The notes beneath the pieces were generated by a model. That model was not told the origin of the DNA. It saw only the letters and a program-made list of their open reading frames with translations, and made no database searches. A DNA stretch of 64,000 bases from Pseudomonas eutrophicaquae. Its GTDB lineage: Bacteria; Pseudomonadota; Gammaproteobacteria; Pseudomonadales; Pseudomonadaceae. The stretch's first letter is position 1; every line of letters begins with the position of its first letter. Both the position numbers and the translations under genes were made by a program. The DNA lies in NCBI RefSeq assembly GCF_023544715.1, contig NZ_JAMJEZ010000010.1:1-64000 (forward strand), read 5' to 3'. Below, piece after piece: positions 9,058 through 51,341 of the stretch.

Positions 9058-9133
9058 TGGTGCCCAGGGACGGAATCGAACCGCCGACACGGGGATTTTC
9101 AATCCCCTGCTCTACCAACTGAGCTACCTGGGC
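9058..9133 (-). tRNA. tRNA-Phe (GAA), second copy in the transcript
   Basis: This is a 76-nt tRNA on the minus strand. The acceptor stem GCCCAGG pairs with CCTGGGC, the anticodon loop is TTGAAAA with anticodon GAA, the T-arm is GGTTCGATTCC, and the CCA end is encoded. It is identical to the copy 29 nt upstream and probably shares its promoter. Confidence 0.97.
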
Positions 9134-9162
9134 CAATCTGTTGCGGAACCACTTATGTTAAG

Positions 9163-9238
9163 TGGTGCCCAGGGACGGAATCGAACCGCCGACACGGGGA
9201 TTTTCAATCCCCTGCTCTACCAACTGAGCTACCTGGGC
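9163..9238 (-). tRNA. tRNA-Phe (GAA), first copy in the transcript
   Basis: This 76-nt tRNA has the same sequence as its neighbour: anticodon GAA in loop TTGAAAA and an encoded CCA. It is the promoter-proximal copy. The spacer to the second copy is 29 nt and is presumably removed by tRNA processing. Confidence 0.97.
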
Positions 9239-37486: not shown

Positions 37487-37869
37487 GAAACTTCCTGCAA
37501 CTGCACAGTGAAGCCGCACGCAGGCGGCAGGGGGCGGCAGATTAGCAGTTTTGCCGGTGCCGCCGGCAGCGCCATGCGCAGGCCGGGTCAAAGGACGCTG
37601 CCGAGCTCGTCTGCTTTTTGCGACATAAATATGGCTTTCTGATTAAATGCGGCAGCCTAAAATGCTTTGCGTGCCGTCTTTTTGATGGCCTTGTGGGCCC
37701 TTGGGCGCCGGCCTTCTGCCGCCTGGATCTCGAAGGGCGCACAGGCGCTGCGTGGCAAATGCTATTTTCAGCACGCATCCTGCACCAACCATGCAGGGTA
37801 TGCGGCGTGGTCACTCCTACAACAATACAGCCAGTGATGGATCAGATCCTGTCACGACAAGGAGTCGGG
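37487..37869. other. 383-bp intergenic region between tex and the bcs operon
   Basis: This stretch carries the divergent upstream regions. The part at about 37610-37680 is AT-rich; TTGCGA (37618-37623) followed by GATTAAAT (37641-37648) is a weak sigma-70 candidate for bcs transcription. The frame of bcsE stays open back to 37618 but the upstream codons are not family-like. AAGGAG at 37856-37861 is an ideal ribosome-binding site for the TTG at 37870. No further gene was recognised. Confidence 0.4.
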
Positions 37870-39396
37870 CGTTTGAGCGGTTTTCCCCTGACGATCCCTA
37901 GTTTGCGCGATGAATGGCAGCAGCTGCAGCAAGGCGGCCTCTACTGGCTGAATGCTGAGCAGCGCGACACGGCGGTGCAGCTGTGCAGCCAGGTGCTGGC
38001 CGGGCTTGGCCACGCGCAGCGGGTGATCTTGCTGGATACAGCGGCGCACCCAGAGCGCCTGCTGGAGCGCCTGCCGACTGACGCCGGCCCCGCTGAAGTC
38101 TGGCCGGTGCAGATCATCGGACGTGATCTGCGCGCGGCCCTGCAGGCCCTGACGCGCGATCTGCAGCGGCGTGGCCGGCCGCATGGGCAACTGCTGGTGC
38201 TGGTGATCCCGACCGAGGCATTCGATGCCTTCCATGACGCTTCCCTGCAGCGCTGGTGCCGTGAAACCCGCAGCTGGTTGCAGGCCCGTGACTGCACCTT
38301 GCTGGTACTGGGCTATGGCGCCGCGCACCGTTTGAGTGGCCGTCTGCTGGCCTGCAGTGCGGACCTGGACGGGCTGGTGCAGCTGTACCGGGCGCGCGGC
38401 AGTCTGCAGTACCTGCTGCACTTCTGGCGCCATTCAGGTGGCGTGCATGCCCGCAATGAGGTGGCTTTGGGTGAGGAGCAGGGGCAGCTGTGTGCCCGCG
38501 CTGAGTCGGTCCTGCCGGCTGATCCTGCCGCCGAGGATCTGCAGCGCTGTCTGGCACTGCGCGCGGTGCTGGAGGGGGCGCCGCCGCTCTCCGAGCACTG
38601 GCAGCTGTTCGATGAGCCGGCGGAGCTACTGGCGGTTGCGCAGCAGTCCAGCGCCGCCAGTGTGATCCTGGCCATCGACAGCAACGACGCCGTCGCCACC
38701 CTGGCCGAGCAGCTCTATCAATTGCGTCGCCTGCGCGGTCATGCGCTGAAGATTGTGGTGCGCGAGTTGTCACCGTGCCTGCGCTATCTGGATGAACAGC
38801 TGCTGCTGAGCTGCGGGGCATCGCTGATCGTGCCGTGCGGCACCGTGCTGGCGCGCTTTCTGACCCTGCTCGACAGCCTGCAGGGCCAGGTGTGGAATCG
38901 CACCTTGCCGGATGATTTCGCGCAGGCTTTGCGGCAGCTGCAACCGCCCAGCGTGCGCGGTCTGCTGGCGGTCGAGGACTTCTGCCGCACCGTGGATCAC
39001 TTGCTGGAGCAGGCGCGGCTGGCCGAGGTCAGCCACCTGCTGGTGCGTCTGCAGCCGGTACCGGGGCTGGAGCCGGCCCAGCTCATCGGCCAGTGCCGTT
39101 TGCGCCGCTATGGCGATCTGGCCTGTGTGGCGGATGGGTCTGTTTATCTGTTCCTGTTTGCCTGCCGCCCCGGCATGCTTGAAAGTGCGCTGGACAATAT
39201 CTTTCGCCTGGCCTGGCGGGAGTTGTTTGTGGCGCATGCCTTGCTGGAAGACAGTCGCACGATCCGCCGTGATGCCCAGCCGCTGCCCCAGGTACTGGCC
39301 CCGCACCCAGCGCCTGCGTCTGCTCAGGCACTGGCTCAGGCACTACGGCCCGCGCCGATGCGGGTGACATTGCACGGCGGGGAGGACAGGACATGA
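37870..39396 (+). CDS. bcsE: BcsE, c-di-GMP-binding cellulose synthesis regulator
   Basis: This 508-residue cytoplasmic protein binds c-di-GMP and helps the cellulose synthase complex and BcsG work at full activity in enterobacteria. A degenerate N-terminal domain and REC-like middle (VLEGAPPLSEHWQLFDEPAE, LKIVVRELSPCLRYLDEQLL, LLSCGASLIVPCG) precede the GIL domain. There the RxGD motif is RYGD at residues 413-416, matching Escherichia coli (415-418) almost exactly in position. The TTG start is chosen for its AAGGAG eight nt upstream and because it reproduces the family's N-terminus; the alternative ATG at 37834 has no such site. The gene overlaps bcsF by four bases. Confidence 0.92.
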   Translation, partial: RLSGFPLTIPSLRDEWQQLQQGGLYWLNAEQRDTAVQLCSQVLAGLGHAQRVILLDTAAHPERLLERLPTDAGPAEVWPVQIIGRDLRAALQALTRDLQRRGRPHGQLLVLVIPTEAFDAFHDASLQRWCRETRSWLQARDCTLLVLGYGAAHRLSGRLLACSADLDGLVQLYRARGSLQYLLHFWRHSGGVHARNEVALGEEQGQLCARAESVLPADPAAEDLQRCLALRAVLEGAPPLSEHWQLFDEPAELLAVAQQSSAASVILAIDSNDAVATLAEQLYQLRRLRGHALKIVVRELSPCLRYLDEQLLLSCGASLIVPCGTVLARFLTLLDSLQGQVWNRTLPDDFAQALRQLQPPSVRGLLAVEDFCRTVDHLLEQARLAEVSHLLVRLQPVPGLEPAQLIGQCRLRRYGDLACVADGSVYLFLFACRPGMLESALDNIFRLAWRELFVAHALLEDSRTIRRDAQPLPQVLAPHPAPASAQALAQALRPAPMRVTLHGGEDRT

Positions 39397-39566
39397 GTCA
39401 CACCCAGGCGCTGTACCTGCTGCTCAGTGGCGCGGCGCTGGGCCTGCTGGCCGGGTTACTGCTTCCAGCCCTGCTGCGCGGCCTGTGGGCGCTGCTGGCG
39501 CGCGTATGGCCCTCACGCCACCTGCGTTTCTACCCGCGCCAGCGGCGTCGGGGAGGCCGGGCATGA
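39393..39566 (+). CDS. bcsF: BcsF, small membrane subunit
   Basis: This 57-residue single-span membrane protein begins MSHTQALYLLLSGAALG, has one hydrophobic helix (about 7-30) and a basic cytoplasmic tail rich in Arg. In enterobacteria BcsF recruits BcsE to the membrane, near BcsG. Size, topology and position between bcsE and bcsG identify it, since sequence conservation in this family is low. It overlaps both neighbours by four bases (ATGA). Confidence 0.85.
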   Translation: MSHTQALYLLLSGAALGLLAGLLLPALLRGLWALLARVWPSRHLRFYPRQRRRGGRA

Positions 39567-41185
39567 TCGCGCCGGGTACAACCGGCCACTGGTCGGGGCT
39601 AGGGCACTGGAACCTGTATTTTCTCGCCAAGCTGCTGCTCGCCTGGCAGGGCAGCCTGTCGCTGCAGGTGCTGCCCAACCTGCTGCTGGCCGCCGTCCTG
39701 CTGCTGCCGCTGGGGCTCTGGCTGGCCCGCCTGCGCCTGCTGCTGGCCGTGCCGGCGGCGCTGGCGCTGCTGTACCAGGAAAGCCCGTTGCCGCCGGTGG
39801 AGCGGCTGACCGCGCTTTCGGGGCTGCTGGATTTCTCCCCCGAGTACCTGCTGGAACTGGCGGGGCGGTTCTTTAGCGTGCGTGAGGCGGGGGCGGTGGC
39901 CCTGTGTCTGCTCGCCTACTACCTGCTGTCGCCCTGGCTGCGGCTGAGCAGCCTGTCGCTGGGTGGCCTGCTCTGGCTGGCGCTGCTGCAGGTGCCGCTG
40001 CCAGCCTTTTGGCCGTTGCTGCAGAGTGAGACCGTGCAGGCCGCCTCAACGCCAGCTGCGGGCAGCACAGCCGCCCCGGCCGAGGCCGATCTTGATCAGT
40101 GGCTGGTCGAGTTCCACGCCCGTGAGGCGCAGCGCCGGGTCAGCTTCCCGGCGGCAAGCGGCACACCGCCCTTTGATCTGCTGGTGCTCAATATCTGCTC
40201 GCTGGCCTGGAGCGATCTGCGCCAGGTTGGCCTTGTGCAGCACCCTCTGCTGCAGGACATGGATATCCTGTTCGAGCAGTTCAACTCGGCCACTTCCTAC
40301 AGCGGCCCGGCCGCGATCCGGCTGCTGCGCGCCAGCTGCGGCCAGCCGGCGCATAGCCAGCTGTACCAGGCTGCCGATGCGCAGTGCCAGCTGTTCGACA
40401 ACCTGGCCCAGCTCGGCTTTAGCAAGCACCTGGCGCTCAATCACAACGGGCGTTTCGAGGGCTTTGGCGACATGCTGCGTGCCCATGGCAACCTGCCGGC
40501 GGCGCAGTCCAGCGAGGGGCTGCGCCGCGCCTGGGTGGCCTTTGATGGCACGCCGATCTGGAGCGATGGCGAGGTGCTGGAGCGCTGGTGGCAGCAGCGT
40601 AGCGCACAAGATCCGGCGCCCGCGGCGCTGTTCTACAACACCATCACCCTGCACGACGGCAATCGCGTGATTGAAGTGGATGGCGGGACGCGCTCAGCCA
40701 CCTATGCCGAGCGGGCGACCCGTTTGATGGATGATTTGCAGGCGTTTCTCACGGCTCTGGAGCGCAGCGGCCGGCCGGTGGTGGTGGTGCTGGTGCCCGA
40801 GCATGGTGCGGCGCTGCGTGGCGATGCGCTGCAGATTGCCGGTCTGCGCGAGTACCCCTCGCGCTCGATTACCCATGTACCGGTCGGCCTGCGCCTGATC
40901 AACCTGCCGCTGGACGAGACAGCGCCGCAGCGGGTCAGTACGCCGAGCAGCTATCTGGCGGTGGCGGAGATCATCGCCCGTCTGCTGGCCGGTATCCCGG
41001 CGGGGCAGAGCGCCCTCTCGCCCGCCGCGCTGGTGCGTGATCTGCCGGTCAGCGAGTGGGTGGCGGAAAGCGAGGGCGGGGTGGTGGTCGCACCGGCCGG
41101 GATCGATTACCTGCGGGTGCGCGAGGGCGGTGCCTGGCGGCGCTATCCTGTGCCCCTCGATGCCGGGGGACAGGATGGCCGCTGA
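39563..41185 (+). CDS. bcsG: BcsG, cellulose phosphoethanolamine transferase
   Basis: This 540-residue inner-membrane enzyme transfers phosphoethanolamine from lipid to nascent cellulose in the periplasm. The N-terminal third has about four or five membrane helices (from WNLYFLAKLLLAWQG to about residue 155). The soluble catalytic domain keeps the key sites: Cys212 in NICSLAW, nucleophile Ser247 in NSATSYSGPAAIRLLRAS, and the zinc ligands Glu413-His414 in VPEHGAAL. These equal Cys243, Ser278, Glu442 and His443 of Escherichia coli BcsG. This predicts phosphoethanolamine-modified cellulose. It overlaps bcsQ by 11 bases. Confidence 0.96.
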   Translation: MIAPGTTGHWSGLGHWNLYFLAKLLLAWQGSLSLQVLPNLLLAAVLLLPLGLWLARLRLLLAVPAALALLYQESPLPPVERLTALSGLLDFSPEYLLELAGRFFSVREAGAVALCLLAYYLLSPWLRLSSLSLGGLLWLALLQVPLPAFWPLLQSETVQAASTPAAGSTAAPAEADLDQWLVEFHAREAQRRVSFPAASGTPPFDLLVLNICSLAWSDLRQVGLVQHPLLQDMDILFEQFNSATSYSGPAAIRLLRASCGQPAHSQLYQAADAQCQLFDNLAQLGFSKHLALNHNGRFEGFGDMLRAHGNLPAAQSSEGLRRAWVAFDGTPIWSDGEVLERWWQQRSAQDPAPAALFYNTITLHDGNRVIEVDGGTRSATYAERATRLMDDLQAFLTALERSGRPVVVVLVPEHGAALRGDALQIAGLREYPSRSITHVPVGLRLINLPLDETAPQRVSTPSSYLAVAEIIARLLAGIPAGQSALSPAALVRDLPVSEWVAESEGGVVVAPAGIDYLRVREGGAWRRYPVPLDAGGQDGR

Positions 41186-42095
41186 TGATCTGGACGGCGT
41201 GCGCCGGGCGCTGGGCCTGAGCGAACTGCCTTACCTCGACCTGGCTGCCCAGCGCGTGCTGGCCCAGCTGCCGCAGCGCTGGCCGTGGCTGCCGATGGCG
41301 CTGCCCACGGCAAAGACGCCACCCAGCCGCTCGCCGGGAACCGGGCCCTGCCTGCTGGCGCTGCAGGGGCTGCGTGGTGGTGTCGGGGTCAGTGCGCTGG
41401 TTGCAGGTCTGGCGGTGGCATTGCAGGCGCTGGGGCAGCGGGTGCTGATCCTTGAGCTGGACCCCGCCGGGTTGCTGCGTCACTACGCGGCCCTGCCGGC
41501 CGGTCCGCTGGAGGGCTGGGCGAATGCCGAGCAGGCCGGCGGCGACTGGCATGCCTGCGCCTGGCACATCCAGCCCCAGGTGTATCTGCTGCCTTACGGC
41601 ACGCTGGAGCCTTTGGCGCGCCTGCAGCTGGAGCAGTCGCTGGCGGGGCGCGGCGATCTCTGGACCGCGCGTCTTCGTAGCCTGCAGCCCAATATCGACT
41701 GGGTGCTGTGCGATCTGCCCCAGCACTGGCCCGCGCATGTCGGCAGCCTGAGGGCAGATCTGTACCTGCGGGTCATCGAGGCCGATCCTGCCTGCCATCT
41801 GCGCCTGCAGGAGGGGCTGCCGGCCGAGCAGTGGCTGCTGGTCAATCGTTTTGATCCCACCCGGCGCCTGGCGCAGGATCTCTGGCGGCTCTGGCAATCG
41901 AGCCTGCAGGCCTGTCTGGTGCCGCAGTGCCTGCATGAAGATGAGGCGGTGCGCGAAGCGCTGGCCAACCAGCAGCTGCCCGGTATCCACGCCCCGAACA
42001 GCCTGTTCGCCGAGGATCTGCACGGCCTAGCTACCTGGTGCCTGGCCCGTGCCGCCCGCGCGCGCCACGCGGCAACGCCAGAGGTGCCGGCATGA
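41175..42095 (+). CDS. bcsQ: BcsR-BcsQ fusion, cellulose synthase assembly regulator
   Basis: This 306-residue protein has two parts. Residues of about 60-300 are a SIMIBI/MinD-like BcsQ domain: LQGLRGGVGVSALVAGL is the deviant P-loop, VLILELDPAG the switch strand and DWVLCDLPQHW the Walker B-like strand. In E. coli BcsQ is an ATPase partner needed for synthase assembly. The first 45 residues (VRRALGLSELPYLDLAAQ, QRWPWLPMAL) closely resemble the separate 62-residue BcsR, which binds BcsQ and BcsE. No separate bcsR is present. Both P-loop lysines typical of MinD are absent (Arg and Val instead). The ATG at 41175 lies inside the bcsG 3' end; the stop overlaps bcsA. Confidence 0.9.
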   Translation: MAADDLDGVRRALGLSELPYLDLAAQRVLAQLPQRWPWLPMALPTAKTPPSRSPGTGPCLLALQGLRGGVGVSALVAGLAVALQALGQRVLILELDPAGLLRHYAALPAGPLEGWANAEQAGGDWHACAWHIQPQVYLLPYGTLEPLARLQLEQSLAGRGDLWTARLRSLQPNIDWVLCDLPQHWPAHVGSLRADLYLRVIEADPACHLRLQEGLPAEQWLLVNRFDPTRRLAQDLWRLWQSSLQACLVPQCLHEDEAVREALANQQLPGIHAPNSLFAEDLHGLATWCLARAARARHAATPEVPA

Positions 42096-44644
42096 GTTTG
42101 CGTCTGCCGGGCCGCTTCCCCTGGTATTACCGCACCCTGCGTCAGCAGCAGGGCGCCTCGGTGCCGGTTGCGCTACTGGGGGCCGTACTGGGGTTGCTGG
42201 CGGCGCTGCTGCTGCGTCTGGAGGCCCCCGCCTGGCAGGCGCTGCTGGCGCGCTATCGCCAGCGGTTTGCCGCCGAGCCTGAACTGCGCGCGCACCACAG
42301 CGTGCGCCATGCCTTGCAGCTGCTCTGGCTGCTGCTGGTGCGCGAGCAGGGTGCGCCGCGGCGGATCCTGCTGCGCCGCTGGACCGAAGAGGTTGCCGCG
42401 GAGTCGGCGGAGCGGCCCCTGCGCCGTGCTATGCCCTGGCAGCGGGCCGAGCGGGCGATCGCCCGCCTGCCCCAGCGCGTGCGTCAGTTGCTGCTGGTTA
42501 GTCTGGGTAGCCTCACGGCGCTGCTGGCCTGGCTGTGCATCACCACGCCCTTCGGCGTGCAGGCCCAGCTGCTGTTTGTGGGCCTGCTCTGGGCGTTGGC
42601 CCTGCTGATCCGCCGTCAGCCGGGGCGTTTTGCCGTGCTGCTGCTGATCCTGCTGTCGGTGGTGGCCTCCTGCCGCTACCTGTGGTGGCGCTACACCGCC
42701 ACACTGAACTGGGAGACGCCGCTGGATTTGACCTGCGGGCTGATCCTGCTGGCCGCCGAGACCTATGCCTGGCTGGTGCTGATGCTCGGCTACCTGCAGA
42801 CCAGCTGGCCGCTGGGCCGCAAACCAGCGCCGCTGCCGGCCGATCGGGCGCAGTGGCCGACCGTCGATCTGCTGATCCCCACCTATAACGAAGACCTGAG
42901 CGTGGTGCGCAACACCGTGTATGCGGCGCTGGGCCTCGACTGGCCGGCCGACAAGCTGCGCATCCATCTGCTCGATGATGGGCGGCGCGAGACCTTCCGC
43001 GCCTTCGCTGCTGAGGTCGGCATCGATTATCTGATCCGCCCGGACAACAGGCACGCCAAGGCCGGCAACCTCAATCACGCGCTGACGCAGATCGACGGCG
43101 AACTGGTGGCGATCTTCGACTGCGACCATGTGCCGGTGCGCGCCTTCCTGCAGTTCACCGTCGGCTGGTTCCTCAGGGACCCGAAGCTGGCACTGGTGCA
43201 GACCCCGCACCACTTCTTCTCCCCCGACCCCTTCGAGCGCAACCTTGGCACCTTCCGCCGCCGGCCCAACGAGGGCGAGCTGTTCTACGGCCTGGTGCAG
43301 GAGGGTAACGACCTGTGGAACGCAGCGTTCTTCTGCGGCTCCTGCGCGGTGCTGCGCCGCGCCGCCATCGACTCGATCGGCGGCTTCGCCGTGGAGACGG
43401 TCACCGAGGACGCCCACACCGCGCTGCGCCTGCACCGTCAGGGCTGGAACTCCGCCTACCTGCGCATCCCGCTGGCCGCGGGGCTGGCCACCGAGAGCCT
43501 GTCGGCGCACATCGGCCAGCGCATCCGCTGGGCGCGCGGCATGGTGCAGATCTTCCGTACCGACAACCCGTTCCTCGGGCGCGGACTGAGCTTCTTCCAG
43601 CGCATCTGCTATGCCAACGCCATGCTGAGCTTTCTCGCCGGCCTGCCGCGGCTGATCTTCCTCACCGCGCCGCTGGCCTTCCTGCTGCTGCATGCCTACA
43701 TCATCTACGCGCCCCCGCTGATGATCCTGATCCATGTGCTGCCGCACATGGCCCATGCCAGCCTCGCCAACTCGCGGATGCAGGGCGCGTTTCGCCACAG
43801 TTTCTGGGGCGAGGTCTACGAAACGGTGCTGGCCTGGTACATCACCTGGCCGACCACCATGGCGCTAATCGACCCCGGCAAGGGCAAGTTCAATGTCACC
43901 GCCAAGGGCGGGCTGATGGAGGATGATCAGTTCGACTGGCGCATCGCCCGGCCCTACCTGCTCCTGGCGGCCCTGAATGTGCTGGGGCTGGGCTTTGCTG
44001 TCTGGCGTCTGCGTTACGGGCCGGTCGAGGAGGCCGGCACGGTGCTGATCAGCCTGCTGTGGGTGTTTTATAACCTCTTGATCATCGGCGGCGCCCTGGC
44101 GGTGGCTGCGGAAGTGCGCCAGGTGCGGCAGAACCACCGGGTCGCCACCGACTTGCCGGCGGCGCTGCGTCTGCCCGATGGCCATCTGCTGCAGGCCCGG
44201 CTGGTGGACTATTCCAGTGGCGGCGCCGGGCTGGCGCTGACCGAGGCACGCTCGCTGGCCACCGGCAGTGCGGTCTGGCTGCTGCTGCGCCGCGGCAATC
44301 GCGAGTTCGCCTTCCCGGCGCAGGTCAGCCGCTGTACCGCGCAGCACCTGGGGCTGAATTTTGCCGAGCTGGACCTGCAGCAGCAGATCGATCTGGTGCA
44401 ATGCACCTTTGCCCGCGCCGATGCCTGGCTGAACTGGGGCGAGGAGCATGCGGCGGAGCGACCACTGCGCAGCCTCTTCGAGGTGCTGGCGCTGGGCATT
44501 CAGGGCTATCTGCGTCTGATGGAGCACCTGCCGGCGCCGCTGCGCGCGCTGTATCGTGGTGTGCAAGCGCTGTTTCGCGGGCTGGGCAGTCTGCTGCCCC
44601 GTCCGCTTCCTTCGACCCCTTCGCGAGCGGTGACCGAGCGATGA
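42092..44644 (+). CDS. bcsA: cellulose synthase catalytic subunit BcsA
   Basis: This 850-residue inner-membrane GT2 enzyme polymerises UDP-glucose into beta-1,4-glucan and extrudes it. An N-terminal cytoplasmic region precedes helices at about 140-235. The GT domain has PTYNED, Asp295-Asp296 (LDDGRRE), DCD at 343-345, the catalytic base in TEDAHT (Asp440) and the acceptor motif QRIRW (476-480). More helices follow (about 515-680). The PilZ domain shows R679xxxR683 and D706xSxxG711, the c-di-GMP binding residues, so synthesis should depend on that messenger. The ATG overlaps the bcsQ stop. Confidence 0.98.
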   Translation: MSLRLPGRFPWYYRTLRQQQGASVPVALLGAVLGLLAALLLRLEAPAWQALLARYRQRFAAEPELRAHHSVRHALQLLWLLLVREQGAPRRILLRRWTEEVAAESAERPLRRAMPWQRAERAIARLPQRVRQLLLVSLGSLTALLAWLCITTPFGVQAQLLFVGLLWALALLIRRQPGRFAVLLLILLSVVASCRYLWWRYTATLNWETPLDLTCGLILLAAETYAWLVLMLGYLQTSWPLGRKPAPLPADRAQWPTVDLLIPTYNEDLSVVRNTVYAALGLDWPADKLRIHLLDDGRRETFRAFAAEVGIDYLIRPDNRHAKAGNLNHALTQIDGELVAIFDCDHVPVRAFLQFTVGWFLRDPKLALVQTPHHFFSPDPFERNLGTFRRRPNEGELFYGLVQEGNDLWNAAFFCGSCAVLRRAAIDSIGGFAVETVTEDAHTALRLHRQGWNSAYLRIPLAAGLATESLSAHIGQRIRWARGMVQIFRTDNPFLGRGLSFFQRICYANAMLSFLAGLPRLIFLTAPLAFLLLHAYIIYAPPLMILIHVLPHMAHASLANSRMQGAFRHSFWGEVYETVLAWYITWPTTMALIDPGKGKFNVTAKGGLMEDDQFDWRIARPYLLLAALNVLGLGFAVWRLRYGPVEEAGTVLISLLWVFYNLLIIGGALAVAAEVRQVRQNHRVATDLPAALRLPDGHLLQARLVDYSSGGAGLALTEARSLATGSAVWLLLRRGNREFAFPAQVSRCTAQHLGLNFAELDLQQQIDLVQCTFARADAWLNWGEEHAAERPLRSLFEVLALGIQGYLRLMEHLPAPLRALYRGVQALFRGLGSLLPRPLPSTPSRAVTER

Positions 44645-46929
44645 TGCGAATTTTCATGCCCTGGATGGCCGCCATCGGTCTGTTGCTGGGCAGCCTGCCA
44701 GCGGTGCTGGCCATTCCGCTGCCTGAGGGGACGGTTGTGCCGGCTCCGGCGGTGCTGGAGCCGCCGCCGGCCCCGATCTGGAGCCGCGAATACAGCCTGG
44801 CCGACATGGGCCGCGCCGGCGATGTACTGCTGCTGGGCATCCGCAACAGCGTGCAGCTGGAGCTGCCGCTGCGCCGTGACCGGGTGGTGACCGCCGCGAC
44901 CCTGAACCTCGAATACCATCCCTCACCGGCCCTGCTGGCGGCGCTGTCGCACCTGCGCGTCTACCTCAATGACCGCCTGATGGGCGTGCTGCCGGCGGTC
45001 GGCGAGGAGCCGCTGGCGCTCGGGCAGCCGCTGCGCCGCCAGGTGGCGCTGGATGCGCGGCTGTTCGGTGACTTCAATCGCCTGCGCGTGGAGTTTGTCG
45101 GGCATTACCGGGAAATTTGCGAAGATCCGGCCAACTCGGCGCTCTGGCTGAGTATCGGGCAGGGCAGCACCCTGCAGCTGATCGAGCAGGCGCTGCCGGC
45201 CACGCAGGATCTGGCGCATTTCCCGGCGCCGCTCTTTGATGCGCGTGACAACCGCGCGCTGGAGCTGCCGATGCTGTTCGCCGCCGACGTGCCGCTGGCC
45301 GAGCGGCAGGCGGCGGCGATCCTCGCCTCCTACTTCGGCAGCCTGAGCGACTGGCGCGGCGCGCGCTTTCCGGTGCTGCTGGATCGCCTGCCGGAGGTCG
45401 CGTTGGACCGGCCGCCCCAGCATGCGGTGGTGTTTGCCACCAATGCGCGTCGTCCGGCCCTGCTGGCCGATCGCCAGCGCTTCCCGGATGTGAGCGGGCC
45501 GGTGATCGAGCGGGTGGCGCACCCGGAGAGTCCCTATGCCAGCCTGCTGCTGATCCGCGGGCGCGACAGTGCGGATCTGCAGCGCGCGGTCACGGCGCTG
45601 GCGCTGGGCACGCCGCTGCTGCGCGGCGCACGGGTCGAGGTGGGCGAGCTGCCGGCGCTGCCGGTTCGCCGGCCGTATGATGCGCCGAACTGGGCGCCGG
45701 TCGATCGTCCGGTGCGCCTGGGCGAGCTGATCGATTACCCGCAGCAGCTGCAGGTCAGCGGCCTGCTACCACCGCCAGTTACGCTGGACATCACCCTGCC
45801 GCCGGATCTGTTCGTCTGGCGCAATCAGGGCATTCCGCTGAGCACCCGGTACCGCTTCACCGCCAATGAGCGCGGTGACGAGTCGCGGCTGACCGTGCGG
45901 ATCAATGAGCAGTTCATCGACAGCCTGCCGCTGCGCAGCCGCGAGCAGCGCGGGGCGCTGGATGAGCTGCGTCTGGGGCTGAGCGACCGCCAGGGCAGCG
46001 GGGAGAACGAGCGCCTGTCGATCCCCTCGCTCAAGGTCGGTGCCAGCAACCGCCTGAGCTTTGAGTTCAGCTTTGCCGCCAGCGTCGGCAGCAGCCAGCA
46101 GGATCGCTGCCAGACGGTCTTGCCGGCCAGTGTCTATGGCGCGATCGATGAGGATTCCAGCATTGATCTCTCCGGCTACCACCATTACATGGCGATGCCC
46201 GATCTGGCCGCATTTGCCGGCAGTGCCTACCCGTTCAGTCGCATGGCCGATCTGAGCGCTACCCGCATGCTGGTGCCGGCCGAGCAGGGCGAGGCGTCGC
46301 TGACCAGTTTGCTGGAAGTGTTCGGTCATCTGGGTGCGCGGATCGGTTATCCGGCGTTTGCCGTGCAGCTGTTCGACGACTGGGCGGTGGCCAGTGCTGA
46401 ACCGGCGGATCTGCTGATCCTCGGGCAGTGGCCGGCGGCCCTGCAGGCGGCGGGTGTGCTGCCGCTGCAAAAGGGCCTGGCCGATCACCTGCTGGCCGGT
46501 GCTCCGCCGCGCACGCCACTCAGTGAGCCGCAGACGGTGGCTAGTACCGCAGTGACCCTGAGCGCCGCGGCGCCGCTGGCCGCGGTGGTCGGGCTGCAGT
46601 CGCCGCTTTACCCGCAGCACAGCCTGGTGGCCCTGCTGGCGGACAGTGACGCCGAGCACCATTTGCTGCAGGAGGCGCTGGCCGACCCGGCCCGGCGCGC
46701 TGAGATCCGTGGTTCGCTGGCGCTGATCCGCAGCAGCGGGGTGGTCAGCCAGACGGTCGGTGAGCCCTATTACGTCGGTGAGCTGCCCTGGTGGTGGCTG
46801 CTGTGGTTCCACCTCGCCGCGCAGCCGTTGTGGCTGGCCGGGGTAGCGGTGCTGGTGGTGCTGCTTGGCAGCTTCCTGATCTGGCGTCTGCTGCGGGGCG
46901 TGGCCCGGCGGCGACTGGAGGAGCGCTGA
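44641..46929 (+). CDS. bcsB: cellulose synthase regulatory subunit BcsB
   Basis: This 762-residue protein is a periplasmic partner of BcsA that guides the glucan across the periplasm. A signal sequence (1-24) is followed by repeated carbohydrate-binding/flavodoxin-like halves (SREYSLADMG, SVQLELPLRRDRVVTAATL, VTLDITLPPDLFVWRN). A C-terminal amphipathic helix and membrane anchor (about 725-750, WLAGVAVLVVLLGSFLIW) complete the protein. The CRxC-like and QDRCQTVLP segments agree with the family. It overlaps bcsA by four bases and precedes bcsZ by three. Confidence 0.97.
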   Translation: MMRIFMPWMAAIGLLLGSLPAVLAIPLPEGTVVPAPAVLEPPPAPIWSREYSLADMGRAGDVLLLGIRNSVQLELPLRRDRVVTAATLNLEYHPSPALLAALSHLRVYLNDRLMGVLPAVGEEPLALGQPLRRQVALDARLFGDFNRLRVEFVGHYREICEDPANSALWLSIGQGSTLQLIEQALPATQDLAHFPAPLFDARDNRALELPMLFAADVPLAERQAAAILASYFGSLSDWRGARFPVLLDRLPEVALDRPPQHAVVFATNARRPALLADRQRFPDVSGPVIERVAHPESPYASLLLIRGRDSADLQRAVTALALGTPLLRGARVEVGELPALPVRRPYDAPNWAPVDRPVRLGELIDYPQQLQVSGLLPPPVTLDITLPPDLFVWRNQGIPLSTRYRFTANERGDESRLTVRINEQFIDSLPLRSREQRGALDELRLGLSDRQGSGENERLSIPSLKVGASNRLSFEFSFAASVGSSQQDRCQTVLPASVYGAIDEDSSIDLSGYHHYMAMPDLAAFAGSAYPFSRMADLSATRMLVPAEQGEASLTSLLEVFGHLGARIGYPAFAVQLFDDWAVASAEPADLLILGQWPAALQAAGVLPLQKGLADHLLAGAPPRTPLSEPQTVASTAVTLSAAAPLAAVVGLQSPLYPQHSLVALLADSDAEHHLLQEALADPARRAEIRGSLALIRSSGVVSQTVGEPYYVGELPWWWLLWFHLAAQPLWLAGVAVLVVLLGSFLIWRLLRGVARRRLEER

Positions 46930-46932
46930 TTC

Positions 46933-48039
46933 ATGCGCAGACTGTGGCTGATGATCTTGACCCTGCTCACCCTGGCGCAGGCGGAGGCGGCGAGCTGCCG
47001 CTGGCCGGCCTGGAGCCAGGTGCAGACCCACCTGCTCAGTGAAGACGGGCGGATGATCGATCCATCCTCACCGCGCCAGATCACCACCTCCGAGGGGCAG
47101 TCCTACGGGCTGTTCTTCGCGCTGGTGGCCAACGATCCGGCGAGCTTCGCTCGTGTGCTGAGCTGGACGCAGAACAACCTAGCCGAGGGCGACCTGACCC
47201 GCCGCCTGCCCGCCTGGCTGTGGGGGCGCGCAGATAGCGGTCGCTGGCAGGTGCTGGACGCCAACAATGCCAGCGACTCCGATCTGTGGATCGCCTACAG
47301 CCTGCTGGAGGCCGGGCGTCTCTGGCGGCGGGAGGACTACCGCCGCCTCGGTCTTGAGCTGCTCTGGCGCAGCGCCGCGCAGACCCTGCGGGTGCTGCCG
47401 GGGCTGGGGCTGATGCTGCTGCCGGGGGATATCGGCTTTGAATCGGCGCAGGGCTGGCGACTGAATCCCAGCTATCTGCCGCCGCAGCTGCTGGCCCGTT
47501 TTGCCGAGGAGAGCCGCATCTGGGCGGAGTTGGAGGCCAATACCTATCAGCTGCTGCGCCGCAGCGCCCCGCGCGGTCTGGCCCCGGACTGGTTGCTCTG
47601 GCAAAGGAGCGGGCAGCCGGCGGCCGATCCCGAATACGGCCACGAGGGCGATTACGATGCGATCCGCGTCTACCTGTGGCTGGGCATGCTGGCAACGGAT
47701 GCCCCGGAGCGCGCCGCGCTGCTGGCTCATGTCGCGCCGATGGCCCGCCTCACCGCCCAGCGCGGTGCGCCGCCTGGGCGGATCGACGCCGCCACCGGGC
47801 AGGCGCAAGGGCAGGGGCCGGCCGGCTTCTCCGCCGCATTGCTGCCGCTCTTGGCCGCTCAGGCACCCGCCGCGCTGAGCGTGCAGCGTCAGCGCCTGGC
47901 GCAGCACGCGCCGGAGCCGACGGCCTATTACGGGCAGATGCTGCGCCTGTTCGGTGAGGGCTGGGATCAGGGCTGGTACCGCTTCGATGCCCGGGGCCGG
48001 CTGCTGCCTGCCTGGCAGGAGGGATCATGCCCCGACTGA
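46933..48039 (+). CDS. bcsZ: BcsZ, periplasmic endo-beta-1,4-glucanase (GH8)
   Basis: This 368-residue cellulase associated with the synthase trims or edits the polymer. A signal peptide covers about 1-20. The GH8 catalytic acid is Glu54 in TTSEGQSYGLFFAL, and the catalytic/substrate Asp residues are Asp115 and Asp117 in NNASDSDLWIAY. The length is that of the family. It lies in its usual place between bcsB and bcsC, and its end overlaps the bcsC start by 13 bases. Confidence 0.97.
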   Translation: MRRLWLMILTLLTLAQAEAASCRWPAWSQVQTHLLSEDGRMIDPSSPRQITTSEGQSYGLFFALVANDPASFARVLSWTQNNLAEGDLTRRLPAWLWGRADSGRWQVLDANNASDSDLWIAYSLLEAGRLWRREDYRRLGLELLWRSAAQTLRVLPGLGLMLLPGDIGFESAQGWRLNPSYLPPQLLARFAEESRIWAELEANTYQLLRRSAPRGLAPDWLLWQRSGQPAADPEYGHEGDYDAIRVYLWLGMLATDAPERAALLAHVAPMARLTAQRGAPPGRIDAATGQAQGQGPAGFSAALLPLLAAQAPAALSVQRQRLAQHAPEPTAYYGQMLRLFGEGWDQGWYRFDARGRLLPAWQEGSCPD

Positions 48040-51000
48040 GAACCCTGCTGTGCGGCATGGCGCTCTACCCGGTCCTGACGCTGGCCCAGACCCCGCCGGC
48101 GAGCGCCCAGGCCGATCCACAAGCCTGGCTGCTCGGGCAGATACGTCTGGCCGAGTCGCTGGGCCGTGATGATCTTCTGGACAGCGCGCTGGCGCGGCTG
48201 CAGCAGTTCGACCCGCAGCATCCCGAGGTCATGGCTGCCCGACTGCGCCAGGCGCTGCGTCAGGATCAGCCCGAGACCGCCGCGCAGTGGCTGGAGCAGC
48301 TGGAGCAAAGCGCACCCGGCTCGCCACTCTGGCAGTCCGCCCGGCTGCAGCTGCAACTGGCCAGCGAGGCCGGGCGCGCGCAGCTGATGGCGATCCGCCA
48401 GCAGGCCGAGGAGGACCCGGCACAGGCGCTGGCGGCGCTGGAGGCGCTGTTTACCGGTCACTGGCCGGGTATCGAGCTGGCGCTGGAGTACTGGCGGCTG
48501 CGCGATCGGCTGGACGGGCAACGCCCCGCCGTGCTGGCGGGGCTGCAGGCGCTGGTCGCCGAGTATCCGCAGCAGCCGACCCTGCGGCTGCGGCTGGCCG
48601 ATCTGCTGTTTGCCGAAGGCCGCGAGCGTGAGGCGCTGGATCAGCTGCAGGCGCTGGCCGAGCATCCCCAGGCCCGGCTGGCGGCGGCCGAGCGCGAGTT
48701 CCAATACCTGCAGGAGCAGTCGCTGAGCGCCGCAGCCGGGCTGCGCTGGGGGACATTCATGCACCGCTACCCGGACTCGCCCCTCAAGGAAGAGGCGCGT
48801 CAGGAGCAGGAGCGGGTCCGCCAGCGGCTGGCAGATCCGGCCTGGCAGGCGCTGCTGCGCGGCGAAGCGCTGCTGGAGCAGGACAACCCCGAGGCGGCCC
48901 TGGCCGCGTTGCAGCCGGCCGTCCGCCGGCTACCGCGCGAGGCGGCGGTGCAGGGTGCGCTGGGGCTGGCGCTGATGCGCGTGGGGCGTCATGAGGAGGC
49001 GCAGCGGGCCTTTGCCGTGGCGCGCCAGAGCGAGCAGAACCTCGACCGGCTCAGCCGCTGGTATTCGCTGCAGGAGGTGGCCCGTTACTGGGGCTTGATC
49101 GGACAGGCCGAGCAGCAACTGGCTCAGCAGGCGTTGGAGCCGGCGCGCCGGTTGTATGCCAAGGCGCGCGCGTTGCAGCCGCAGGAGAGCGCCGCTTGGG
49201 TCGGGCAGGCCAATGTACTGATCCTGCAGCAGGACTACCCGGGGGCCGAGCGCCTGCTGCGTCAGGCCCGCAGCCTGGCGCCTGAGGATGGCGATGTGCT
49301 GCGCGGCTGGTTGCGTCTGTATCAGGCGCAGTCCCCCGAGCGGGCGCTGGCCTTCCTCGAGGGGCTGCCCGAACGGCTGCGCCAGCCCTTTGCGGACGCC
49401 CTGCGCGACCTGCGGGTCGAGGTGCTGCTCAAGGAGGCTGATGCCCTGCAGGCGCGGGGCGAGACGGCCGCCGAGGTGCAGGTGCTGAGCCGCGCCCGGG
49501 CGCTGAAGCCGGACAATCCCTGGCTGACCTATCGCCTGAGCGACCGCCTGCTGGCGCTGGGGCGCGGGGCCGAGGCGGAGCCGCTGTTTGCCGATCTGCT
49601 GCAGCGGCAGGGGCAGCTGCCGGCGGCGCGCTATGCCCATGCCCTGTACCTGTCGGCGCAGACCCGTGACGATGAGGCGCGGGCCAGTCTGCAGCAGATT
49701 CCCCGCACGGCGTGGAGCGCCGACATGCAGGCGCTCGATGAGCGGCTGGCCGAGCGCCAGCTGCTGACCCGGGCTGGCGCCTTGCTGGACCGTTTCGAGC
49801 AGCAACTGGCGGCCGGGCAGCGTCAGCAGGCGCGCCAGGCGCTGGACGCCTTGCCGGAGTTGCCGGCAACCGCCGTGGCGCTGCGCCGGCGCAGTGCCGA
49901 GGCCTGGCTGGCGCTCGGGGAGGCGGACAAGGCCTTGCCGCTGATCGAGTCACTGCAAAGTGAAGAAGGCGAGCCGCAGCTATGGCGCGATGCCGCGCGT
50001 CTCAAGGCGGACAAGGCCCCGCAGCAGGCGCTGGACCTCTACGCCCGCGGTCTGCAGGACGCCGGTGTGCTGCCGGCAGCATCCGCCGAGCGCCTCCGCG
50101 ATGACCGCGCGCTGACCCGCGCCACCCGGCCCGAGGCCGAGGACGACTGGCTGCGCAGCAGCCTGCGCGCCGAGGCGGCGGCGCTCTATCAGCGGCAGAA
50201 TCCGACCCTGCGCCTGCAGCAGGAATATGCCTGGCGCACCGATGAGGTCACCGGCGGTATCTCGGATCTGCAGCAGGATCTGCGTCTGCTGCAACTGGAG
50301 TGGCCGCTGAGCGGCGGGCGCGCCTTCCTGCGCGCCGAGGACATCGTGCTGGATGCCGGGCGTTTTGCCGCCGAGGCTGACGGCCTGCACCGTGAGCTGT
50401 TCGGCACCTGTGCGCTGCCGGGGCTGCCCGGCTGCCCGATCACCCGTGAGCAGGCGCGCGGCACGACGCTGGCGCTCGGTTGGAGCGATGCGCGCTGGTC
50501 GGTCGATCTGGGGCGCAGTCCGCAGGGCTTTGCCCTCGGCAACTGGCTCGGCGGGGTGAGTCGCTCCGGGGACTGGGGCACGCTGGGCTGGACCCTGACC
50601 ACCTCGCGCCGGCCGCTGGCCAACTCGCTGCTCTCCTACGCCGGCGCCCGCGATCCACGTACCGGTATCCGCTGGGGCGCGGTGACCGCGACCGGCATGA
50701 CGCTGGGGCTCAGTTACGATCAGGGCGGTGATCACGGCTTCTGGGCCAACATCGGCCAGCACTGGCTAGAGGGCGAGCAGGTGGCCGACAACCGCCGTAC
50801 CCGGCTCATGGCCGGGTATTACTATCGGCTCAACGAGCAGGTCAACCAGCGCCTGCGTCTCGGGCTGACCGCCATGCACTGGCGTTATGAGCGCGACCTG
50901 GGCGGCTATACCCTCGGGCAGGGCGGCTACTACAGCCCGCAGCGTTACAACTCCCTCAGCCTGTCGCTCAGTCAGGCCTGGCGCAGTGCCAACTGGTCAG

Positions 51001-51341
51001 TGCAGCTGGACGGCGCGCTGGGCGCCTCGTGGTCGCGCAGCGCCGCCAGTCGTGACTATCCGCTGCGCGGCCTGATCGATGGCCTGCTGCTGGCACCGCC
51101 CGCCGCCGACTTCGACCTCAACCCGGGGGAGAGTGGCCGCGCCTGGTCCTACCGCTTCACCACCTTGCTGGAGCGGCGCCTGAGCGATCACTGGCTGCTC
51201 GGCGGCAGCTTCAACTGGCAGCAGAGCGAGGACTACGCCCCCAGCTACCTGCAGTTGCAGCTGCGCTATCTGTTCGAGCCCTGGCAAGGGGCGCTGCCGC
51301 TGGGCGCCGAACTGCTGACCCCCTACAGCGAGTTCCGCTGA
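48027..51341 (+). CDS. bcsC: BcsC, cellulose export TPR-porin
   Basis: This 1104-residue outer-membrane export protein has a signal peptide (about 1-27) and a long periplasmic array of tetratricopeptide repeats (about 30-690), very rich in Leu, Ala, Gln and Arg. A C-terminal beta-barrel of about 360 residues begins near 740 (RLQQEYAWRTDEVTGGI) and ends in a barrel-type strand (LGAELLTPYSEFR). TPRs are thought to bind peptidoglycan or the BcsA-B complex, and the barrel releases the glucan. It is slightly shorter than Escherichia coli BcsC (about 1150). It is the last gene of the operon. Confidence 0.96.
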   Translation: MPRLRTLLCGMALYPVLTLAQTPPASAQADPQAWLLGQIRLAESLGRDDLLDSALARLQQFDPQHPEVMAARLRQALRQDQPETAAQWLEQLEQSAPGSPLWQSARLQLQLASEAGRAQLMAIRQQAEEDPAQALAALEALFTGHWPGIELALEYWRLRDRLDGQRPAVLAGLQALVAEYPQQPTLRLRLADLLFAEGREREALDQLQALAEHPQARLAAAEREFQYLQEQSLSAAAGLRWGTFMHRYPDSPLKEEARQEQERVRQRLADPAWQALLRGEALLEQDNPEAALAALQPAVRRLPREAAVQGALGLALMRVGRHEEAQRAFAVARQSEQNLDRLSRWYSLQEVARYWGLIGQAEQQLAQQALEPARRLYAKARALQPQESAAWVGQANVLILQQDYPGAERLLRQARSLAPEDGDVLRGWLRLYQAQSPERALAFLEGLPERLRQPFADALRDLRVEVLLKEADALQARGETAAEVQVLSRARALKPDNPWLTYRLSDRLLALGRGAEAEPLFADLLQRQGQLPAARYAHALYLSAQTRDDEARASLQQIPRTAWSADMQALDERLAERQLLTRAGALLDRFEQQLAAGQRQQARQALDALPELPATAVALRRRSAEAWLALGEADKALPLIESLQSEEGEPQLWRDAARLKADKAPQQALDLYARGLQDAGVLPAASAERLRDDRALTRATRPEAEDDWLRSSLRAEAAALYQRQNPTLRLQQEYAWRTDEVTGGISDLQQDLRLLQLEWPLSGGRAFLRAEDIVLDAGRFAAEADGLHRELFGTCALPGLPGCPITREQARGTTLALGWSDARWSVDLGRSPQGFALGNWLGGVSRSGDWGTLGWTLTTSRRPLANSLLSYAGARDPRTGIRWGAVTATGMTLGLSYDQGGDHGFWANIGQHWLEGEQVADNRRTRLMAGYYYRLNEQVNQRLRLGLTAMHWRYERDLGGYTLGQGGYYSPQRYNSLSLSLSQAWRSANWSVQLDGALGASWSRSAASRDYPLRGLIDGLLLAPPAADFDLNPGESGRAWSYRFTTLLERRLSDHWLLGGSFNWQQSEDYAPSYLQLQLRYLFEPWQGALPLGAELLTPYSEFR

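Follow-up and report, generated by a model that had tools for sequence, protein, structure and literature searches.

In Escherichia coli, BcsR and BcsQ (PF10945 and PF06564; PDB 6yar, 6ybu and 9fnn) are two polypeptides that are unstable or aggregating when alone and that together form a stable 2:2 complex, as set out in the study describing them (PMC7439463). In the same study, the GGDEF-like domain of BcsE co-purifies with BcsQ and not with BcsR, and it is proposed that separate polypeptides, as opposed to “genetically fused modules”, could allow extra regulatory input as well as varied stoichiometry and symmetry (PMC7439463). A 2024 cryo-EM study depicts one BcsR hairpin plugging BcsA, with the second hairpin not resolved, and gives D21, I22, L25, F29, L31, I34 and Y36 as the hairpin residues in the BcsA contact; it also describes the N-terminus of BcsP as homologous to BcsR (PMC11470070).

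In the window (the whole stretch of 64,000 nucleotides that was analysed), the two proteins are encoded as one. The frame at 41175..42095 on the + strand, translated from an ATG at 41175 to a stop codon at 42093-42095, encodes 306 residues and was confirmed, on translation and profile matches, to join BcsR, through a linker of about 20 residues, to BcsQ in a single reading frame, as the sequence-only reading had claimed. This fused gene (bcsRQ) has the domain order and conserved BcsR core of the E. coli proteins and shares with E. coli the variant BcsQ P-loop RGGVG and the operon partners bcsE, F, G, A, B, Z and C. It differs in that one polypeptide, with no separate bcsQ start, takes the place of two, of which the free BcsR has about 62 residues, and in a BcsR leader of three residues instead of 19. 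A second species of the same genus (genome G003) encodes a fused protein, G003a, that is 54% identical to the window's, in the same operon order. Searches of the main texts of open-licence papers turned up no natural fusion of BcsR with BcsQ; the fused BcsR/BcsP-BcsQ architecture is already detectable by family databases in other proteins of the bacterial family.

The fused gene and its operon

A profile check of the N-terminus against BcsR found a match. The BcsR domain, residues 4-39 (41184..41291, + strand), matched the NCBIfam model NF040717 (BcsR_only) with an E-value of 3.8e-9 and 36.1 bits on the protein and of 1.7e-9 and 39.2 bits in the genome scan, both scores lying below the curated cut-off of 46; G003a reaches 44.4 bits. 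PF10945 covered residues 4-39 at 13.8 bits (E 0.045) on the whole protein and scored 17.6 bits (E 0.0029) on the first 55 residues alone, the cut-off being 25.2 bits. Scores beneath the curated cut-offs of both models count against strict family membership. In addition, a profile of 23 separate BcsRs aligned without a gap to residues 2-41 (hhalign, probability 95.2, E 2.5e-8), and the first 60 residues scored 36.4 bits against our own seven-sequence BcsR profile, compared with 11.0 for the best shuffled sequence (2000 made, 1678 scored). A MAFFT placement of the separate BcsRs had suggested internal homology between BcsR and the C-terminus of BcsQ; profile comparison gave this pairing a probability of 0.3 over one aligned column. 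It was set aside as an alignment artefact, and alignment A2 was left out of use.

Ungapped alignment to residues 20-57 of E. coli BcsR yields 11/38 identities for the window and 15/38 for G003a. Six E. coli residues are invariant in the 23 separate BcsRs (D21, L25, Y36, D38, W52 and P53), and the window keeps five of them, the sole change being L25 to V9; L31 and R51 are kept as well. The position of L49 is P in the window and T in G003a, and that of L54 is W in the window and F in G003a. Among the BcsA-contacting hairpin residues, D21, L31 and Y36 are identical in the window, and I22, L25, F29 and I34 are hydrophobically replaced. The BcsR motif given in the sequence-only reading stood in part: Y-x-D and RWP align at the spacing of E. 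coli BcsR, but the LP is not equivalent, since without gaps the window's LP (GLSELPYLDL) does not align with the E. coli one (SLPDIDYADI).

The linker, residues 42-59 (41298..41351, + strand), is rich in Pro, Ser, Thr and Gly. It leads into the BcsQ domain, a SIMIBI NTPase at residues 60-290 (41352..42044, + strand), where the C-terminal part exceeds the curated cut-offs of both BcsQ models: PF06564 at E 2.8e-61 and 207.5 bits (cut-off 21.3; E 1.2e-61 in the genome scan) and TIGR03371 at 179.4 bits (cut-off 157.85). This is the single match to TIGR03371 in the genome at E 1e-30. The genome is 2.55 Mb in 57 contigs and 99.85% complete, and a BcsR-profile search of the whole of it, up to E 10, found no other credible BcsR. 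The only other match covers 17 positions within a 395-residue frame at E 0.14, which supports the claimed absence of a separate bcsR.

The operon, bcsE-F-G-RQ-A-B-Z-C, is a complete E. coli-like (type II) set; bcsE-F-G and the synthase genes lie in line on the + strand, whereas E. coli has two divergent operons. The first gene, bcsE (37618..39396, + strand), matches PF10995 at E 2.9e-138 from residue 89; judged by eye, it probably starts at the ATG near 37837, and its I-site RxxD is kept as RYGD. A bcsF-like gene follows (39393..39566, + strand), assigned by position and hydropathy, whose 57-residue product has a hydrophobic stretch and no Pfam match of its own; its counterpart in genome G008 of the same genus matches PF11120 at E 1.4e-4 and 22.2 bits, with a cut-off of 23. 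Next to bcsRQ lie bcsG (39563..41185, + strand; PF11658, E 1.2e-187) and bcsA (42092..44644, + strand), the latter identified by NF008558 and PilZ matches and by alignment to E. coli BcsA. They are followed by bcsB (44401..46929, + strand; PF03170, E 1.5e-192 from residue 128), whose start is uncertain, the listed frame extending upstream of it, and by bcsZ (46933..48039, + strand; PF01270, NF008305) and bcsC (48027..51341, + strand; PF05420, NF008520). Window BcsA has two arginines, R350 and R775, of the triad that contacts BcsR around D21, as well as the PilZ RxxxR (R679, R683); as the two triad arginines are also present in 7/7 other aligned Pseudomonadaceae BcsAs, one of them from a BcsP-type operon, they discriminate little. 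Upstream, on the opposite strand, lies tex, and downstream of the operon are an OmpR-type regulator, a histidine kinase and rimK. Elsewhere, a neighbouring pair of tRNA-Phe genes that share an anticodon occupies 9058-9238 on the - strand, and no other tRNA or Rfam matches were found in the window.

Constraint on the two domains

The bcsRQ product is, as a whole, best explained as a covalently joined BcsR-BcsQ subunit belonging to a type II cellulose secretion system, a sequence-based reading to which we give a probability of roughly 0.78, and we infer that the fusion is functional. By simple counting between the window and G003a, dN/dS is 0.35/0.74 in the R part (38 codons) and 0.40/0.79 in the Q part (233 codons); the linker, at 20 codons a rough estimate, gives 0.75/2.85. 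Linker residues 40-59 are 35% identical to those of G003a, with gaps of one and two residues, versus 58% for R and 56% for Q. By these values, the BcsR part is under constraint similar to that on the BcsQ part.

The BcsQ domain keeps G68, G69 and G71 of its P-loop, and has E94, G99 and Y104 where D, N and H are near-invariant. Over the 57 columns near-invariant in 20 separate BcsQs, the window departs at 10 and G003a at 4, on a scale where leave-one-out departures of those 20 themselves run from 0 to 20. Since the switch aspartate is replaced by E94 and the asparagine by glycine at 99, the ATPase of the window BcsQ may be altered; E at the switch position is also found in 9/41 BcsQs fused to BcsP and in 8/41 unclassed BcsQs of the survey below.

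Some of these features would be expected if the N-terminal segment were a decaying BcsR remnant, accidentally fused and inactive, with BcsQ acting alone or the system drifting. Decay would fit the long branch of the window BcsQ together with its 10/57 departures, the change of L25 to V, the P or T at the L49 position, and BcsR scores below the cut-offs. Against this, the R domain is 58% identical across two species and has a dN of 0.35, compared with 0.75 for the linker and 0.40 for Q; D21, L31, Y36, D38, R51, W52 and P53 are kept, and the operon genes read open. Decay is thus an unlikely account of this protein.

Compact and long-linker fusions in the family

The reading of a covalent BcsR-BcsQ subunit can be set against a survey of Pseudomonadaceae, in which TIGR03371 at E 1e-30 matched 124 places in 110/399 genomes, all 124 being classed with two small profiles. 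BcsR is fused to BcsQ at 2 places (the window genome, G000, and G003) and separate at 37, and BcsP is fused at 41 and separate at 3; no N-terminal partner was found at the remaining 41, a class that includes proteins with extensions the profiles may miss, so that the count of 41 for fused BcsP may be an underestimate. Ten of the long-frame proteins themselves served as seeds for the BcsP profile.

Wider samples, which overlap in part, were searched with a profile of the fused protein (A1) that is insensitive to BcsP-BcsQ proteins. At the level of the order, 13/293 genomes match A1 at E 1e-25, and only the window's own is fused; G003 is not among the matches and so lies outside that sample. The compact fusion was not found in two other families (20 places in 19/21 genomes and 12 places in 12/140), and at 6/32 of these places R and Q align in a single frame that is interrupted by one or two stop codons. 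At the level of the class, 3/369 genomes match A1, the window's own included, and type II systems are few (3/369 in each of two samples). A fused-profile contig scan returned four Pseudomonas loci, 37-38% identical in the BcsQ part only. A BcsQ relative is present in 18 plasmid records, in two of which (Yersinia frederiksenii and Pseudoalteromonas donghaensis) it covers 80% or more of the query. In both, as in species of the two other families, bcsR and bcsQ are adjacent, in line and in the same frame, but are separate genes in which the stop codon remains. The plasmid near-relatives of window positions 36500-60000 comprise 24 records, none beyond the 60-80% identity band. As a separate observation, eight loci in four genomes (L136, L184, L174, L186, L165, L190, L168 and L189) are paired BcsQ-like genes about 1.1 kb apart.

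The BcsQ tree, midpoint-rooted, has 72 rows: all 42 R-type or separate-P rows, 8/41 fused-P, 3/41 unclassed, 3 references and 16 outside loci. The window and G003a group together as a clade (99/96) nested in a starred set of 38 rows whose separate-R members run from E. coli to the nearest relatives, and the BcsP-type clade is split off at 100/100. The nearest sister of the fused pair is poorly supported (91/12), and the window row is a long branch (0.88, versus 0.23 for G003a) whose place the tree program flags as unsure. The simplest reading of these sequences is one compact fusion event in the data seen, apart from the BcsP-type fusion. Within the bacterial family, where fusion of a BcsR/BcsP domain to BcsQ also occurs elsewhere, the compact BcsR-BcsQ of a type II operon is a rare form.

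The fused BcsP-BcsQ proteins at 41/124 loci (e.g., L058, L096, L047 and L099; NF040718 and TIGR03371) likewise place a BcsR-homologous N-terminal domain ahead of BcsQ in one frame. Of four that were scanned, three exceed the PF10945 cut-off and one matches below it, and all four exceed that of PF06564. Those of 344 residues resemble WssA. Their linkers are 59-116 residues long, compared with 20-21 in the compact fusions; their P-loop, in the 12 rows seen, reads KGGVG, then K or R, then S or T; and their BcsQs form a clade separate from the window's. Could the window protein nevertheless be a member of this long-linker family? The homology of BcsP to BcsR noted in PMC11470070, and the very frequency of that fusion (41/124), speak for it. 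However, both compact proteins match NF040717 (BcsR), with NF040718 (BcsP) unlisted for either, and the window protein differs in type of N-terminus, linker length and clade, the tree setting the pair among the separate-R BcsQs. The window operon also includes bcsE and bcsG, matches to which are absent from the BcsP-type maps drawn (0/7). Membership of the BcsP-BcsQ family is accordingly highly improbable.

One position may connect the two kinds of fusion. Window H103 (41481-41483) corresponds to E. coli BcsQ L46, a position that is L or V in 40/40 separate-R BcsQs (37 from the survey and 3 outside references), L in 3/3 separate-P, H in 2/2 fused-R and not L in 40/41 fused-P; it is L in 23/26 BcsQs of two other families and mixed in the 41 unclassed (H 15, L 13, others 13). 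It is conceivable, if doubtful given a position chosen post hoc and a comparison of about two events, that BcsR/BcsP-BcsQ fusion arose at least twice and that the compact and long-linker lineages both lost the hydrophobic residue equivalent to L46. If this loss reflects altered docking of the tethered domain, covalent linkage would change the seating of BcsR on the BcsQ dimer, and in G003 fused and separable versions would operate side by side with one bcsE.

The junction and the likely effect of a covalent link

G003 holds two cellulose operons in tandem (G003:C1:565470-597106; L069, L070, L216 and L217). One set has the fused RQ and bcsE; the other has separate bcsR and bcsQ with bcsG, A, B and C, but matches to bcsE and bcsZ are absent from it. 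The two are flanked by tex and ompR-envZ-rimK, as is the window operon, and in G008 an operon with separate bcsR and bcsQ adjoins tex. Where the genes are separate, in G008, G003b and G024, the start of bcsQ falls in an ATGA that overlaps bcsR, the two genes being read in different frames, and by eye a purine-rich sequence precedes that start. In both fused copies the ATGA start is gone. The G003a junction stretch that was scanned has no ATG, GTG or TTG codon, and the window junction has one ATG (codon 41), with no Shine-Dalgarno-like sequence seen before it by eye. A small frame-changing indel at the bcsR/bcsQ overlap could have created the fusion. As the genes of these three relatives overlap in different frames, one frame-changing sequencing or assembly error could join them, but this is scarcely credible, because G003 has the same architecture with a linker differing by whole codons, and third-position G+C remains high across all three parts (R 0.85, linker 0.83, Q 0.81).

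The structures of the E. coli proteins are compatible with a fusion, and for the covalent BcsR-BcsQ subunit they suggest the following arrangement. BcsQ would dimerise as an ATP sandwich, with a BcsR tethered to each protomer by the flexible linker of about 20 residues, and the C-terminal helices of BcsR would clamp the dimer. One of the two N-terminal BcsR hairpins would fill the hydrophobic pocket of BcsA and keep the PilZ domain actively oriented. With one polypeptide in place of co-synthesis from two overlapping genes, BcsR would fold on BcsQ in cis, and neither partner would be made without the other.

The likely effect of fusion is thus obligatory 1:1 synthesis and folding in cis, and the final stoichiometry need not change. 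The sequence-only reading had proposed that the link fixes an R2Q2 stoichiometry; the covalent link stands, but the separate E. coli proteins are already 2:2 (PMC7439463), so that fusion would fix a stoichiometry that is the same anyway. Its further proposal, a change in how BcsE engages the complex, found no support: it is BcsQ, not BcsR, to which the GGDEF-like domain of BcsE binds (PMC7439463), and we see no reason to expect changed engagement. Judged from PMC11470070, the contact most exposed to tethering would be that of the BcsR hairpin with BcsA.

Two helper proteins of the cellulose machine that are normally separate are joined here, which provides a natural test of whether separation is needed. 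If the system works, its occurrence as a natural fusion within a complete type II operon suggests that separateness is not needed in every lineage, and the fused and separate versions in tandem in G003 make the idea of a need for separation testable. As the E. coli proteins are unstable apart, the fused protein could also serve biochemistry as a single-chain BcsRQ.
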